Below are positions 1,772-15,564 of a stretch of DNA of 64,000 nucleotides, one piece after another. The notes beneath the pieces were generated by a model that had not been told where the DNA came from, did not search any database, and saw only the letters and a list, made by a program, of their open reading frames with translations. The DNA is taken from assembly GCF_039525035.1 (NCBI RefSeq), contig NZ_BAAAHE010000044.1:110891-174890 (forward strand), written 5' to 3'. Origin of the DNA: Sporichthya brevicatena (GTDB lineage Bacteria > Actinomycetota > Actinomycetes > Sporichthyales > Sporichthyaceae). Every line of letters begins with the position of its first letter. The first letter of the stretch is position 1. A program made the translations under genes and the position numbers.

Positions 1772-3844
1772 ATGAGCGGTCGAACCGGCACGCGTACGAC
1801 GAAGACACGCAGATCTCCGGCCCGGGCGGTCCGCGCCACGGCCGGCACGGGGGCGGCGCTCGCCCTCGTCCTGGGCTACGGCACGGTCACCGGCGGGGTG
1901 GGGCACGCCGCGGCCGACGAGCTGCCGCGATTCAGCGACTGCAACGAGTTCACGAAGTACATGCGCTCGACCGCGGAGTCCGAGGTCACCGCGTACGGCC
2001 TCGGCGGCGGGCCGATGATGTACAAGACCGCGCCGATGACCGCCGAGGGTGACGCGTCGCGCGCCGGGGCGGCTCCGAGCGCCGCCGTCGGCAACGGCCC
2101 GACCGGGACCAACACCCAGGAGCGCGGGGTCGACGAGCCCGACATCGCGAAGATCCAGGGAAAGCGCGTCCTCAGCCTGGTGAACGGCAAGCTCACCGTC
2201 GTCGACGCCGCGGGGCGCAAGCCCAAACTGCTCTCGACCCACACGTTCGCGGAGAACGAGTACCCGAACGAGCTGTTCGTCCTCGACAGGAACCGCGTGA
2301 TGGTGCTCGGCACCGGCTGGAAGCAGCACGACGCGGTGGACTCCCCGGCCGGCAAGCGCGCCCCCGGCTTCGCGCCCGGCCCGTACCGGCCGGCCGAGTC
2401 CTACGTCGTGCTGACCGTGCTGGACCTGTCTCAGCCGACCCGGCCGAAGTTGGTCCGCACCGAGAGGATCACCGGCTCCTACGTCACCGGCCGGCTCACC
2501 GACGGCGTCGCGCGGATCGTGCTGACCAGCCAGCCGCGGATCGCGTTCAGCACCCCGCGCGAGGGTGAGCCCGAGACGCTGGCGCTGGCCCGCAACCGCA
2601 AGGCCGTCCGCGACGCGAAGGCCGAGGACTTCCTGCCCGAGCGCACGGTCCTCGACCAGGCCGGCAAGGTCGTCCGCTCCGGCCCGCTGATGGACTGCGG
2701 GGCCGTCCGGCACCCGTCGGTCCGCTCCGGGCTGGGCATCATCTCGGTCCTCACCCTCGACACCGCCGACGGCGGAGCCCGGCTCGAGCGGGGCAAGGCC
2801 GCAGGCGTCGTCAGCAACGGCGACCTCGTCTACAGCTCGACCGACCGCCTCTACGTCGCCACGACCGACGGCGGCTGGAACTCCCCGCGCCCGGTCGACT
2901 CGCGCCGTCCGCGCGAGCAGGAGATGCGGACCCGGATCCACGCGTTCGACGTGACCGGCCGCAACGACAGCCCGTACGTCGCGACGGGTTCAGTACCGGG
3001 CTTCCTCCTCGGCCGCTGGGCGCTCTCGGAGTTCCAGGGCAAGCTCCGCGTCGCCACCACGACCGGGCAGCCGTGGGCACCGCCGGAGGAGACCCCGAAC
3101 TCGCAGTCGAGCGTCGTGGTCCTCGCCGAGCGCGGCGACGAGCTGCGGAAGATCGGCTCGGTCTCCGGCCTCGGCAAGGGCGAGACGATCCGCGCCGTCC
3201 GCTGGTTCGACGACATCGCCGCGATCGTGACGTTCCGTCAGACCGATCCGCTGTACCTCGTCGACCTCGCCGACCCGGCCCACCCGGCCGTGCGCGGCGA
3301 GCTGAAGATCCCGGGCTACTCCGCCTACCTCCACCCGGTCGGTGGGGACCGCCTGCTCGGCGTCGGGCAGGACGCCGACTCGACCGGCCGCGTCACCGGC
3401 CTGCAGGTCTCGTCGTTCGACCTGCGCAACCTGGCGAAGCCGACCCGCACCGCCGCGCTCGGCTACGGCCGCGGCTGGACCGACGTCGAGCACGACTCCC
3501 GGGCGTTCACCTACCTGCCCGGCCGTCGCCTCGCGGTGCTGCCGGCGTACGTGACGCAGAAGGTCCCGTGCCCGCCGGACGCCCAGTGCTTCGCCGCCGA
3601 CGGGCGCCCGGGCTTCGTCGGGGAGATCCAGGTCCCCGCCGCTCTCGGCATTCGGGTCGGCGCCGACGGCACGCTCCGCAAGGCCGGGAAGTTCGTCGCG
3701 GACTCCGCCATCCTGCGCGTCCTCCCGGTCGGCGACCGCCTCGTCGCGATCACCGGGAACGCCGTCGTCCTCCTCGACCCGGACACCTTCTCCCCGACCG
3801 GGTCGGTCCGCACGGCCCCGGACGAGGCCAAGCCCACGCGCTGA
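1772..3844 (+). CDS. Secreted beta-propeller domain protein (tandem paralogue)
   Basis: 690 residues. An Arg/Thr-rich N-terminus is followed by a hydrophobic stretch (about 27-46) and an Ala-rich cleavage region (GHAAADE), a clear signal peptide. The block GTNTQERGVDEPDIAK (about residue 111) opens the propeller domain, which ends near the C-terminus. Four Cys are likely disulfide formers: one in SDCNEF near the mature N-terminus, one in DCGAVR, and a pair in PCPPDAQC that the first copy lacks. The ATG follows GGTGGGGAC, a usable ribosome site. It lies 97 bases after the first paralogue and is probably co-transcribed. Ligand and function are unknown. Confidence 0.88.
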   Translation: MSGRTGTRTTKTRRSPARAVRATAGTGAALALVLGYGTVTGGVGHAAADELPRFSDCNEFTKYMRSTAESEVTAYGLGGGPMMYKTAPMTAEGDASRAGAAPSAAVGNGPTGTNTQERGVDEPDIAKIQGKRVLSLVNGKLTVVDAAGRKPKLLSTHTFAENEYPNELFVLDRNRVMVLGTGWKQHDAVDSPAGKRAPGFAPGPYRPAESYVVLTVLDLSQPTRPKLVRTERITGSYVTGRLTDGVARIVLTSQPRIAFSTPREGEPETLALARNRKAVRDAKAEDFLPERTVLDQAGKVVRSGPLMDCGAVRHPSVRSGLGIISVLTLDTADGGARLERGKAAGVVSNGDLVYSSTDRLYVATTDGGWNSPRPVDSRRPREQEMRTRIHAFDVTGRNDSPYVATGSVPGFLLGRWALSEFQGKLRVATTTGQPWAPPEETPNSQSSVVVLAERGDELRKIGSVSGLGKGETIRAVRWFDDIAAIVTFRQTDPLYLVDLADPAHPAVRGELKIPGYSAYLHPVGGDRLLGVGQDADSTGRVTGLQVSSFDLRNLAKPTRTAALGYGRGWTDVEHDSRAFTYLPGRRLAVLPAYVTQKVPCPPDAQCFAADGRPGFVGEIQVPAALGIRVGADGTLRKAGKFVADSAILRVLPVGDRLVAITGNAVVLLDPDTFSPTGSVRTAPDEAKPTR

Positions 3845-3861
3845 CGCACTTCACCAGCTGC

Positions 3862-3902
3862 ACCCCTGCTTCACCGCCCGGCCCGGCCGGTGAAGCAGGG
3901 GT
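3862..3902. terminator. Strong hairpin after the beta-propeller pair
   Basis: A perfect 15-bp inverted repeat (arms ACCCCTGCTTCACCG at 3862-3876 and its complement at 3888-3902) encloses an 11-base GC loop. It starts 17 bases after the beta-propeller stop and ends 32 bases before the next start. No T-run follows, as is common for actinobacterial terminators. It is inferred to terminate the propeller operon. Confidence 0.7.
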
Positions 3903-3934
3903 ACGGCCAGTGAAGGCGGGGTGGGGACGGCAGG

Positions 3935-5164
3935 ATGCTCGGCGTGGCGACGCGATCCTGGGTGCCGGTGCCGGAGGGCTCGGACTTCCCGCTCCAGAAC
4001 CTGCCGTTCGGGGTGTTCTCGCGGCCCGGTGCGGAGCCCCGCTGCGGGGTGGCGATCGGGGACTTCGTCCTCGACCTCGCGCCGGTGTTCGGTGACCCGG
4101 CCTTCGGCGAGCCGTCGCTCAACCGGTTCCTGGCGGCGGGACGGGATCGCTGGGACGAGGTCCGGCGGGCGCTGACGTCGTTCCTGTCCGACCCGTCGCA
4201 CGCGATCGACGTCGAGCCGCACCTGATCCCGCGGTCCGCGGTGACCCTGCATCTGCCGTTGGAGGTCGCGGACTACGTCGACTTCTACGCCTCGGAGCAC
4301 CACGCGACGAACGTCGGGCGCATGTTCCGGCCGGGCGGCGAGCCGCTGACGCCGAACTGGAAGCACCTGCCGATCGGCTACCACGGCCGGGCGGGGACGG
4401 TGGTGGTGTCGGACACCGACATCGTCCGCCCCTGCGGGCAGCGGCGGTCGGCGGAGGGCCCGCCGACGTTCGGACCGACCCAGCGCCTCGACATCGAGGC
4501 CGAGGTCGGGTTCGTCGTCGGGGTCGGCACGGCGATGGGGACGCGGGTGCCGGTCGAGGACTTCCCCGAGCACGTCTTCGGCGTCGTGCTGCTCAACGAC
4601 TGGTCCGCCCGGGACGTGCAGCAGTGGGAGGCCCAGCCGCTCGGGCCGTTCCTCGGCAAGTCCTTCGCGACGTCGATCTCGCCGTGGGTGGTGCCGCTCG
4701 CGGCACTGGAGCACGCGCTCGTCGACGCACCGGCTCCCGACCCGGAGCCGCTGCCCTACCTGCGGACCCCCGGACCCAGCGGTCTCGACATCGCGCTGGA
4801 GATCGAGATCGACGGCACGGTGGTCTCCCGGCCGTCGTTCGCCGACATGTACTGGACCGCCCCGCAGCAGTTGGCGCACCTGACCGTGAACGGGGCGTCG
4901 CTGCGGACCGGAGACCTCTTCGCCTCCGGCACCGTGTCCGGACCGGAGCGGGAGCAGCGCGGCTGCCTGCTCGAGCTGAGCTGGAACGGCACCGAGCCGA
5001 TCCGTCTCGCTGACGGGTCCTCACGCACGTTCCTCGCCGACGGGGACACCGTGACGATCCGCGGCACCGCGCCCGGGGCGGACGGTGTCCGCATCGGGTT
5101 CGGTGAGCTCAGAGGAACCGTGCTGCCAGCGTCTCCAGCCGGGCGCGGTACTCCGGCCAGGTGA
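3935..5164 (+). CDS. fahA: Fumarylacetoacetase
   Basis: 409 residues, the normal length for bacterial fumarylacetoacetase, the last step of tyrosine/homogentisate breakdown (fumarylacetoacetate to fumarate and acetoacetate). The N-terminal SH3-like domain (about 1-100) is followed by the catalytic FAH domain with metal-binding acidic residues in DIEAEVGFVVG and NDWSARDVQQWE, then GPFLGKSFATSISPW. The GTG three codons downstream (VATRSWVP) is an alternative start. The homogentisate dioxygenase and maleylacetoacetate isomerase partners are not in the window. Its last 56 bases overlap the 3' end of the convergent DinB-like gene. Confidence 0.93.
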   Translation: MLGVATRSWVPVPEGSDFPLQNLPFGVFSRPGAEPRCGVAIGDFVLDLAPVFGDPAFGEPSLNRFLAAGRDRWDEVRRALTSFLSDPSHAIDVEPHLIPRSAVTLHLPLEVADYVDFYASEHHATNVGRMFRPGGEPLTPNWKHLPIGYHGRAGTVVVSDTDIVRPCGQRRSAEGPPTFGPTQRLDIEAEVGFVVGVGTAMGTRVPVEDFPEHVFGVVLLNDWSARDVQQWEAQPLGPFLGKSFATSISPWVVPLAALEHALVDAPAPDPEPLPYLRTPGPSGLDIALEIEIDGTVVSRPSFADMYWTAPQQLAHLTVNGASLRTGDLFASGTVSGPEREQRGCLLELSWNGTEPIRLADGSSRTFLADGDTVTIRGTAPGADGVRIGFGELRGTVLPASPAGRGTPAR

Positions 5165-12790: not shown

Positions 12791-13708
12791 ATGCAGGCCA
12801 CGCGCGTCCAAATGTTCCGCCGAGCCACCATCGTCGCTTCCTCGGCATTTCTGCTCAGCCCGACCTTGTTCGGACACACCGCGGCGGTCGCCGACCCCGC
12901 CGGCGACAACGGCGTGCTCCAGGTCCACGACCAGGGCACGTCGCGCACCGACCGCAGCAACGACCCGCACGTCGGGTGCGGCTTCTACTTCGTCGGGTTC
13001 GGGTTCGACGCCAACACCACGATCGACTACATCGTCGACGACGGCCCGCCGTTCCCGGCCAACCCCTCGGCGCCGTACGTGCTCACCGGGTCGTTCCAGG
13101 TCGACAGCGACGGCAACGGCTCGACCCTGAACCTGACCCTGCCGACCGGCGACTACAAGGTCTACTTCTCCTACACCGGCCAGAACGGCAACGGGAACGA
13201 CAAGCGCTTCGACGTCACCTGTGCCCCGGCGCCCACGCCCACGCCGACGCCCACGCCCACCCCGACCCCGACCCCCACCCCGACGCCCACGCCGGTCGTG
13301 ACGCCGACCCCGACCCCGACTCCGGTCGTCCCGACCCCCACCCCGGTGGTCCCCACCCCGACCCCGGACCCGACCCCGGCCGTCGGTGGCGTCACGGTGC
13401 CGGCTCCGACGCCGGCTCCGACCCCGCCGACCACGAAGCCGGTCGCCCAGCCCGCCACCAAGCCCGCGACGAAGCCCGTCGCGAAGCCCAAGCCCGTCGC
13501 GGAGCCCGCGCCGGCGGTGGGCGGCGTGGCGGTCCCGGCGGACGACGACAACGGGGCGATCCCGACCGGCGGGGTGGCGGCCGGTGGTGGCGCTCTCGCC
13601 GCCGGGGACAGCTCGCTCCCGCTCGGGCAGCAGTCCGCCGCCGCGATGGTCCTGGCCGCCATGGGCGCCTGGGCCGGCGTCGAGCGGCTGCGCAACCGCA
13701 AGCGCTGA
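12791..13708 (+). CDS. Secreted Pro/Thr-repeat protein with C-terminal membrane anchor
   Basis: 305 residues. A signal peptide (about 1-35, ending near HTAAVADPA) is followed by a small beta-rich domain (about 50-140) with two Cys (HVGCGF and DVTCAP) that could pair. A long PT-repeat linker (about 143-205), a Lys/Pro/Ala tract and a C-terminal hydrophobic segment (about 278-297) with the basic tail RLRNRKR complete it. This is the layout of a sortase substrate, but no LPxTG or LAxTG is present; SLPLGQQ just before the hydrophobic segment is the nearest match. A class F-like sortase gene begins 10 bases downstream. It is probably a surface protein anchored in the envelope. Confidence 0.82.
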   Translation: MQATRVQMFRRATIVASSAFLLSPTLFGHTAAVADPAGDNGVLQVHDQGTSRTDRSNDPHVGCGFYFVGFGFDANTTIDYIVDDGPPFPANPSAPYVLTGSFQVDSDGNGSTLNLTLPTGDYKVYFSYTGQNGNGNDKRFDVTCAPAPTPTPTPTPTPTPTPTPTPTPVVTPTPTPTPVVPTPTPVVPTPTPDPTPAVGGVTVPAPTPAPTPPTTKPVAQPATKPATKPVAKPKPVAEPAPAVGGVAVPADDDNGAIPTGGVAAGGGALAAGDSSLPLGQQSAAAMVLAAMGAWAGVERLRNRKR

Positions 13709-13718
13709 GGTCCTCCTC

Positions 13719-14378
13719 GTGCGCTCCCTCGTGCGCGCGGGCGCCCGCCGTTCCGTGCGGTGGGCGCCCGCTGCTCTCGCCGTCCTCGCGGTCGGCTACG
13801 GCGGTCCCTCGGCCGCCGGGACCGAACCGGTTCTGACCCACGACGCGCCGTTCACCATCGCGTCGTTCCCCGCCGCCGACTCCGTGCCCGCGGCTGTCGC
13901 GGCGAGCGAGTCCGCGACCGGGTCGGCCACTGAACAGGTGGCCGACCCGGCGCGAGTCGCCGTACCCCGTCTCGGCATCTCGGCGGCGCTGTCGCCGCTG
14001 AGCCTGGGCGCCGACGGCGAGTTGATCCCGCCGGACTACGGCTCCGCCGGCTGGTACCGCAACGGCCCCGAGCCGGGCGAGACCGGGCGGGCGGTGATCG
14101 CCGGGCACGTCGACTCCCGGACCGGTCCGGACGTCTTCGCCGACCTGCGCAACGCCCGGCCGGGTGACCGGATCGTCGTCGACCTCGTCGACGGCACGGC
14201 GCAGGAGTTCGTCGTCGACGACGTCGGCCTGTACGCGAAGTCGGCGTTCCCGACCGCGGACGTCTACGGCCCGAGCACCGAGCGCGAGCTCCGCCTCATC
14301 ACCTGCGGGGGCGAGTACGACCGTGACCGCGGCGGCTACCAGTCCAACGTCGTGGTGTTCGCCCACGCCGTGGGCTGA
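13719..14378 (+). CDS. Sortase, class F-like
   Basis: 219 residues from GTG, with GAGG eight bases upstream; a second GTG four codons later is possible. An N-terminal hydrophobic stretch (about 13-32) would export or anchor it. The sortase domain (about 80-219) has the catalytic His in IAGHVDSRTGPDVF, Cys in LITCGGEYDRDRGGYQSNVVV, and the Arg in DRDRGGY. Sortases cleave a C-terminal sorting motif and transfer the protein to a nucleophile. Its tight spacing to the secreted Pro/Thr-rich gene suggests that protein is the dedicated substrate (inference). Confidence 0.9.
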   Translation: MRSLVRAGARRSVRWAPAALAVLAVGYGGPSAAGTEPVLTHDAPFTIASFPAADSVPAAVAASESATGSATEQVADPARVAVPRLGISAALSPLSLGADGELIPPDYGSAGWYRNGPEPGETGRAVIAGHVDSRTGPDVFADLRNARPGDRIVVDLVDGTAQEFVVDDVGLYAKSAFPTADVYGPSTERELRLITCGGEYDRDRGGYQSNVVVFAHAVG

Positions 14379-14385
14379 CGCGAGG

Positions 14386-15564
14386 TCAGCGCACCCGCAC
14401 CACGGTGTCGTCCACCCCGCGGCTGTAGACGGTCGCGACGGTGCGGTCGCGGGCGCGCCGCAACCGGGCGAGGTCCTCCCCCGCCGGCTTGCGCGCGAGG
14501 TCGGTCGCGACGTCTGCGGTGTGCAGTCCACCGACGGGTGAGACGAAGGTCGGGGTGACCTCGATGTCGGTGACCTTCCAGCGGTCGCCGTCGCGGGTGA
14601 AGGTGAACTTCGGGACGATTCCCTCGCGCGAGGCGCCGCTCGCGAAGTCGTGGCTCAGGGCCGAGATGACGTTGCCGAGACCGTAGGCGACGTAGCGGTC
14701 GCCGAACGCTTCGATCGCCTGGACCACGTGCGCGTGGTGGCCGATCACGAGGTCGATCTCGCCGGAGTCCATCAGCTCGGTCGCCAGCGAGATCTGATCA
14801 GCCGTCGGATTCGTCACGAACTCGACACCCCAGTGCAGGCTCGCGATCACGACCTCGGCCCCGGCCGCGCGCGCGGCGCGGGCGTCGTCGAGGATCGACT
14901 TGTCCGCGAGGGTGTTGATCAGCCACGGCTTGTCGGCCGGCCGGGCGTTGTTGTGGCCGTAGGTGTAGGACAGGTGAGCCACCGTCACGCCGTTGGCGTC
15001 GAGCAGCACCGGCTTGTCCTCGTCCGCGTTGCGCGCGGTTCCGACGTGGGCGACCCCCGCGGCGTCGAGCGCGGCCAGCGTCGAGTTCACGCCGGCCTCG
15101 CCCTGATCGATCCCGTGGTTGGACGCGGTCGAACAGGTGTCGTAGCCCAACTTGGCGACGGCGACGGCGAGCTCGGGCGGGTTCTGGAAGAGCGGGAAGC
15201 CCTTCGGCTCCGCGCCGGCCGCGCCCATCGGGCCTTCGAGGTGACAGATCGCGATGTCGGCACCGGCGATCAGCGGTTCCAGCGCGGACAGCGCCGGGAA
15301 GAAGTCGTAGCGCGCGGACGTACCCTTCGCCTCGCGCTCCGCCCGCCACCACACGCCCGGGTGGATCAGCAGGTCACCGCTCGCGACGACGGTGAACTGC
15401 TGCGGGGCGGGCGTGGGTGTCGGCGTCGGGGTCGCCGACGGCGCGGCCGTCGCGACCACGTCCGCCGCGGGCAGCGGGCCGGAGTCGTCGTCGGCACACG
15501 CCGACAACGACAGCACCAGGGACATCCCGAACACGGCCGCCCCGGCCCCCCGCACGAAGCTCAC
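14386..15564 (-). CDS. CapA/PgsA-family lipoprotein (metallophosphatase fold)
   Basis: 392 residues. The N-terminus carries a lipobox (LSLSAC, Cys about residue 23) followed by a PT-repeat spacer. The CapA domain has VVASGDLLIHP, CHLEGPMG, ASNHGIDQGEAG and GHHAHVVQ, fitting the calcineurin-like metal site of poly-gamma-glutamate synthesis CapA proteins. In Bacillus, CapA belongs to a polyglutamate capsule machine, but here no capB/capC neighbours are present, so the substrate is open. It converges with the sortase gene 7 bases away. Confidence 0.9.
   Translation of the reverse strand: MSFVRGAGAAVFGMSLVLSLSACADDDSGPLPAADVVATAAPSATPTPTPTPAPQQFTVVASGDLLIHPGVWWRAEREAKGTSARYDFFPALSALEPLIAGADIAICHLEGPMGAAGAEPKGFPLFQNPPELAVAVAKLGYDTCSTASNHGIDQGEAGVNSTLAALDAAGVAHVGTARNADEDKPVLLDANGVTVAHLSYTYGHNNARPADKPWLINTLADKSILDDARAARAAGAEVVIASLHWGVEFVTNPTADQISLATELMDSGEIDLVIGHHAHVVQAIEAFGDRYVAYGLGNVISALSHDFASGASREGIVPKFTFTRDGDRWKVTDIEVTPTFVSPVGGLHTADVATDLARKPAGEDLARLRRARDRTVATVYSRGVDDTVVRVR

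Follow-up and report, generated by a model that had tools for sequence, protein, structure and literature searches.

A candidate sorting signal without LPxTG beside a class F sortase of Sporichthya brevicatena

Our analysis identified a gene pair in Sporichthya brevicatena that encodes a predicted secreted protein rich in PT repeats (P0001) and, immediately downstream, a class F sortase (P0002), both located in the window, that is, the whole 64,000-nucleotide stretch of DNA that was analyzed. P0001 ends in a conserved tripartite C-terminus composed of a motif, a hydrophobic segment and a basic tail, P0002 retains its catalytic His and Cys, and the motif co-varies with class F sortases in other genomes. 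Based on these sequence features and on analogy with studied sortases, P0001 and P0002 probably constitute a dedicated sortase-substrate pair, in which cleavage at a particular bond of the motif and covalent attachment to the cell wall would follow. The motif itself is not a first discovery, since an NCBIfam model for it exists (NF058571, GVDTG_CTERM, "GVDTG sorting domain-containing protein"), and the locus in the window is a divergent member of this catalogued signal type.

The gene pair and its class F enzyme

The original prediction had paired a PT-rich protein ending in a hydrophobic segment and basic residues with a sortase starting 10 bp further on, and the ORFs agree with this arrangement: 10 bp (13709-13718) separate P0001 from the downstream sortase gene. 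The features of the pair are the following:

12791-13708, + strand: predicted secreted PT-rich protein P0001, the proposed substrate, 305 amino acids (ORF)
12908-13222, + strand: P0001 ectodomain, approximately residues 40-144, for which an Ig-like beta sandwich containing two cysteines is predicted (homologues, alignment and AlphaFold2)
13223-13561, + strand: PT/PA-rich linker of P0001 (sequence)
13562-13585, + strand: proposed sorting motif PTGGVAAG, residues 258-265 (motif statistics and a weak NF058571 match)
13613-13633, + strand: SLPLGQQ, residues 275-281, spacer before the TM segment (sequence)
13634-13681, + strand: C-terminal hydrophobic segment SAAAMVLAAMGAWAGV, residues 282-297 (sequence)
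13682-13705, + strand: basic tail ERLRNRKR (sequence)
13719-14378, + strand: class F sortase P0002, 219 amino acids, GTG start, with an N-terminal membrane/signal segment (NF033748, Pfam)
14106-14108, + strand: catalytic His, residue 130 of P0002 (His in 231/234 class F sequences)
14304-14306, + strand: catalytic Cys, residue 196 of P0002 (Cys in 232/234 class F sequences)
14346-14348, + strand: Asn, residue 210 of P0002, at the usual place of the sortase Arg (Asn in 225/234 class F sequences)

Searched as a whole protein, P0001 gave no match at E<=1 in either Pfam or NCBIfam. Its N-terminus (RR...IVASSAFLLSPTLFGHTAAVA), judged by eye only, is signal-peptide-like, and its ectodomain was predicted by AlphaFold2 with a mean pLDDT of 83.5; a Foldseek search with this domain retrieved beta-sandwich proteins such as PmoD (E ~2e-4), the list also including C3/alpha2-macroglobulin domains and CopC. 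The protein terminates in ...AIPTGGVAAGGGALAAGDSSLPLGQQSAAAMVLAAMGAWAGVERLRNRKR, in the order AIPTGGVAAGGGALAAGDSSLPLGQQ-SAAAMVLAAMGAWAGV-ERLRNRKR, and the proposed motif, in its fuller form IPTGGVAAG, lies within the stretch NGAIPTGGVAAGGGALA. The hydrophobic segment is short and immediately followed by a Glu; it failed an 18-residue TM test and passed a 16-residue test. Inspection of the C-terminal region of P0001 confirmed the reported absence of LPxTG and LAxTG, an LPTG string of the protein being part of the N-terminal domain (NLTLPTGDYK), distant from the tail.

The linker (13223-13561) harbors two more copies of PAVGGV (PAVGGVTVPA and PAVGGVAVPA), which are similar to the motif in its first half and lack the TG/AG end. 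Such partial extra copies upstream of the real motif are also found in five Jiangella loci (L008-L011 and L038; GGVNTG and similar), and in both cases the sequences give the impression of a duplicated signal. The next gene of the window (14386-15564, - strand) encodes a predicted secreted protein that, by eye, has a CapA-type look.

P0002 scored 174.1 bits against the NCBIfam class F sortase model NF033748, above the cutoff of 166. The enzyme, previously described as class F-like, can therefore be assigned to class F proper. It also matched the Pfam Sortase family (E 6e-22), and its predicted structure is a sortase fold (pLDDT 93.7) that Foldseek related to solved sortases at E ~5e-9, with class C and class A folds as the closest. 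A profile search of the PDB at E<=0.01 returned nine chains of other sortases and no class F chain. With its conserved His and Cys and its Asn in place of Arg, P0002 shows no notable difference from the NF033748 family; the Arg-to-Asn replacement in actinobacterial class F enzymes has already been published, according to the accessible part of a later article (PMC6998099, citing Malik & Kim 2019). An Arg four residues N-terminal to the Cys is found in 209/234 class F sequences, similar sortases having been thinned before the alignment (A1) was built. From its sequence and structural model, P0002 is a putative transpeptidase. A simple, uncurated regular expression found lipobox-like N-termini in 53/234 class F sortase ORFs (for example LLVPAAC-SGDD at L105:5316-7154), which suggests that some class F sortases may be lipoproteins rather than signal-anchored proteins.

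A recurrent motif upstream of class F sortases

The original prediction had raised the idea that class F sortases recognize an alternative motif, and had proposed aligning the C-termini of proteins encoded beside homologous sortases. We performed this alignment on a discovery sample of class F sortases, together with the proteins encoded upstream of them, from named species and from further genomes of the window's class (among the class F matches listed, all 30 loci and 80 others were read). Partners were defined by structure only: an ORF had to show coding bias and to end in a hydrophobic segment with basic residues behind it. With the strict version of this test, a partner was found for 96 of 154 distinct class F sortases, a count that leaves out the window's own pair, which failed the strict TM test. 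A pattern, P.[GSRKN][GASH][VAPIM].[TSA]G (hereafter STRICT), was present in 79/96 partners, compared with 0.84 on average and at most 5 in 1,000 shuffles, and lay 7-22 residues upstream of the hydrophobic segment; L[PA]x[TSA]G was present in none of the 96. Under a looser hydrophobicity test, 118 partners were recovered in the discovery set, 96 with STRICT and one with the canonical motif.

The resulting signal architecture is P-x-G-[GASH]-[VAPIM]-x-[TSA]-G, followed by a TM segment and a basic tail, and its typical form, P-x-G-G-V-x-T-G, recurs beside class F sortases across actinobacteria in place of LPxTG. Read in the LPxTG register, the motif replaces Leu (P4) by G/A/S/H and Pro (P3) by V/P/A, has T/A/S at P1, and adds a P-x-G upstream and often GxGG downstream; some partners carry APETG, APATG or APQTG, one step from LPxTG. 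The logo of the 96 partners was kept, and one anchored on [TSA]G was left unused because later TG/GG strings had contaminated it. The alignment thus bears out the idea of a conserved motif in the C-termini of class F neighbours and places it approximately 10 residues upstream of SLPLGQQ, the element that had originally drawn attention and that corresponds to a variable spacer before the TM segment. Some divergently transcribed neighbours carry the motif as well. One family of the class encodes the proposed substrate on the strand opposite to the class F sortase, not in tandem with it (L143, L144, L145, L151, L153 and L156).

Since STRICT had been drawn up after viewing the discovery sequences, it was fixed in writing before the neighbours from other classes were fetched. 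The held-out set comprised other classes of the phylum (among the matches listed, the given loci and 60 fetched stretches, some loci having been named but unread before the patterns were fixed). Here, 24 of 74 sortases had no partner passing the structural filter, sortases with less than 400 nt of upstream sequence being omitted from the count. STRICT was found in 28 of the 50 partners (best of 1,000 shuffles, 4) and a second pattern, LOOSE, in 34 (shuffle maximum, 10), compared with a single canonical motif among the 50 and with motifs in 2/54 ORFs with a TM tail located elsewhere in the same loci. STRICT therefore missed 22 partners and LOOSE 16; by eye and post hoc, 15 of the latter carry variants (AAGGVATGAGG, RPNRVEAGAGG, PTRVDAG, IPTGPPATG and similar), and the remaining one (L237) was the only LOOSE miss without any motif-like element.

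A leave-out profile was built from 20 signals, none of them from the window's family or from a Streptomyces-like genus, and was run against eight genomes of these two groups. By coordinates, all 13 matches at E<=1e-4 lie beside a class F sortase. The next matches, away from such neighbourhoods, of which the first ends in LASTG, include proteins with LASTG, LAETG or LAATG ends, which are of the class E type. P0001 was absent from this genome search at E<=0.1; scored alone against the same profile, it reached 16.5 bits. A profile search of the window's own genome gave no fourth strong match (next best E 0.015), and its three strong matches were disregarded, as the profile contained those three sequences by construction.

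NF058571 counts as an independent test, because the model had not been seen when the pattern was drawn up. In a scan of ten proteins that included an LPATG paralogue of P0001 (L104), 4/9 class F sortase neighbours scored above its cutoff, and in a second scan of ten C-termini three did so. Across the 197 genomes of the class, 63 matches above cutoff were found in 48 genomes, and 61 of them lie no more than 2 kb from a class F sortase: 52 directly upstream in the same orientation at a distance of up to 1 kb, and nine more within 2 kb, of which six are divergent and three are in tandem at greater distance. The remaining two have no class F sortase in reach and are both at contig ends; one stops 14 bp before the end of an 8,190,446-base contig that has a class F sortase within its first 650 bases, and the other begins 99 bases away from the end of a contig.

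P0001 fits STRICT, and at its C-terminus the motif is followed by a TM segment and then a basic tail, as in GVDTG_CTERM. Against the model, compared here by its name and scores, it obtained 17.1 bits (last 65 residues) or 18.1 bits (genome search) and did not reach the cutoff of 29; a paralogue on contig C15 also remained below it, with 21.9 bits. P0001 thus belongs here through its architecture and context rather than its curated score. It is a divergent, weak member that lies below the NF058571 cutoff, has Ala at P1 and carries Glu immediately behind a short hydrophobic segment.

If the pair functions as we propose, P0001 would be exported, and the hydrophobic segment and the basic tail at its C-terminus would retain it in the membrane for a short time, with IPTGGVAAG displayed on the outer face. 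The Cys of P0002 would then attack the A-G bond of the motif (generally T-G), predicted to be A264-G265 by analogy with the T|G bond of LPxTG, and would transfer P0001 to a cell-wall acceptor, leaving the beta-sandwich domain on a proline-rich stalk at the cell surface. Both the cut after T/A and the transfer to the wall are inferred from the behavior of the sortase family.

Natural controls and competing explanations

The P0001 ectodomain recurs in other proteins, with C-terminal signals that differ by neighbourhood. Beside a class F sortase, its relatives have ends of the GGVxTG type (L002, L003 and L046; PAPVGGVDTGGGG in L003 and PGVGGVATGGGG in L046) or variants of it (PNGGPPAGGGG in L019 and a reduced PAGGGG in L081). 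In fetched loci without a class F sortase, the ends are LAETG (L045), LPATG (L104), LPFTG (L054) and LPRTG (L060). A further relative at a contig end has GGVDTGGGG (L047), and two have no usable C-terminus (L048 and L050). The LPATG paralogue is encoded in the same genome as P0001 (L104:7262-8218, - strand); a sortase of another class is encoded approximately 3 kb away (3298-4119, - strand).

A second control is provided by a class F paralogue without the catalytic Cys, present in the window's genome and in four relatives of its family. The Cys is replaced by Ser in L268-L270 (where the His is also changed, to Arg), by Pro in L271 and by Ala in L272; the L268 pseudo-sortase lies at G000:C21:44959-45681. 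The copies of the four relatives are 47-94% identical to that of the window's genome, indicating that the gene has been kept even though no normal sortase activity would be possible. In all five cases, the upstream neighbour, a predicted secreted TM protein ending in ...GAAGAAGRR, lacks the motif and keeps a conserved TM-RR tail. Pairs that may have decayed in this way, with the anchor retained and the motif lost, would suggest a non-catalytic scaffold role, and from its sequence the Cys-less paralogue may possibly be a scaffold or a regulator.

These controls bear on the other ways in which the locus could be explained. P0001 could be an uncleaved membrane-anchored protein, with the sortase acting on another target and the motif serving as a conserved linker or docking site, much as the original prediction had suggested in its option of a purely membrane-anchored partner. 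The deviations of P0001 itself (Ala at P1 and a weak TM segment) speak for such a reading, as do the dead sortases with their motif-less TM partners, which indicate that pairs of this kind can persist without catalysis. However, the motif is confined to a limited distance before the TM segment (7-22 residues) and is rare in other ORFs with a TM tail (2/54). Moreover, it is kept beside intact sortases and missing beside conserved ones that have lost the catalytic Cys; because the motif tracks the intact enzymes in this way, we disfavor an uncleaved anchor and regard it as unlikely. Assignment of P0001 to a housekeeping class E sortase, with the class F gene adjacent by chance, is less likely still and in our view improbable: a class E-like sortase, by its look and with no match to the class F profile, is indeed encoded elsewhere in the genome (L104 3298-4119), but the signal occurs almost only beside class F sortases (61/63 matches in 197 genomes) and no class F sortase accompanies the proteins with the same ectodomain and LPxTG/LAxTG ends in the fetched loci.

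As for the position of the signal, SLPLGQQ, read as an LPxG-type variant, is present in P0001 near the hydrophobic segment. Strings of this type occur in only 6/168 partner pre-TM segments, where they differ in sequence and place (LPLG twice, LPTG twice, LPGG and LPDG), and the equivalent zone of the relatives (NLPLVAGG, SLPLLAFGG or SPLLPIAG) looks like the start of a TM segment. SLPLGQQ was accordingly rejected as the sorting motif, its chance of being the signal being very slight. A dedicated pair acting through PTGGVAAG remains our preferred reading.

Relation to known systems and significance

Our literature search found no paper that describes GGVxTG/GVDTG as a sorting motif of class F sortases, and Di Girolamo 2019 and Malik & Kim 2019 may say more on the subject. 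According to the accessible parts of two articles (PMC13257024, PMC7913060), biochemical work on class F has been reported for SrtF of Cutibacterium acnes only, and this enzyme is said to recognize LPXTG, which counts against an alternative motif for the class. SrtF (Di Girolamo et al. 2019) belongs to the same class as P0002, but it is reported there as the sole sortase of its host, acting on LPXTG, whereas the neighbour of P0002 has no LPxTG. Likewise, the accessible text of a study of Actinoplanes missouriensis (PMC13251363) describes no phenotype after deletion of all four class F sortases, which counts against the pair proposed here. In that organism, AMIS_11010 and AMIS_36440 adjoin srtF1 and srtF4, and the authors found no recognizable pentapeptide in them. 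Compared by their description in the available portion of that study, both resemble P0001 in being secreted proteins with a C-terminal TM segment and a basic tail beside a class F sortase, and we predict that they carry a motif of the GGVxTG type. An altered motif is also known from the class E/LAXTG system of S. coelicolor SrtE1, which, in the part of the source at hand (PMC5148588), is also actinobacterial and has a motif altered at P3 with P1 and P1' kept; class E retains the Leu at P4, whereas class F partners have G/A/S/H at this position.

A broader reading, to which we give about even chances, is that actinobacterial class F sortases form a separate branch in sortase chemistry and economy, characterized by Asn in place of Arg, a motif without the P4 Leu (PxG[GA][VPA]xTG) and one private adjacent substrate per enzyme. 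Genomes would then hold several non-interchangeable pairs, and some pairs would have decayed to conserved pseudo-sortases, with partners that have lost the motif and kept the anchor.

A class F sortase above the family cutoff is present in 84/197 genomes of the window's class, and these enzymes are common in soil actinobacteria, yet they are without a settled function in the literature accessible to us. A 2026 genetic study, in its accessible part, discounted the neighbours of class F sortases as substrates because the pentapeptide was missing (PMC13251363). Together, the aligned motif and this locus make the question of class F substrates directly testable. If the proposal is true, substrate prediction in actinobacteria would extend past LPxTG/LAxTG searches, and class F sortases would provide an LPxTG-independent set of enzymes, possibly mutually orthogonal, that could be useful for protein ligation.
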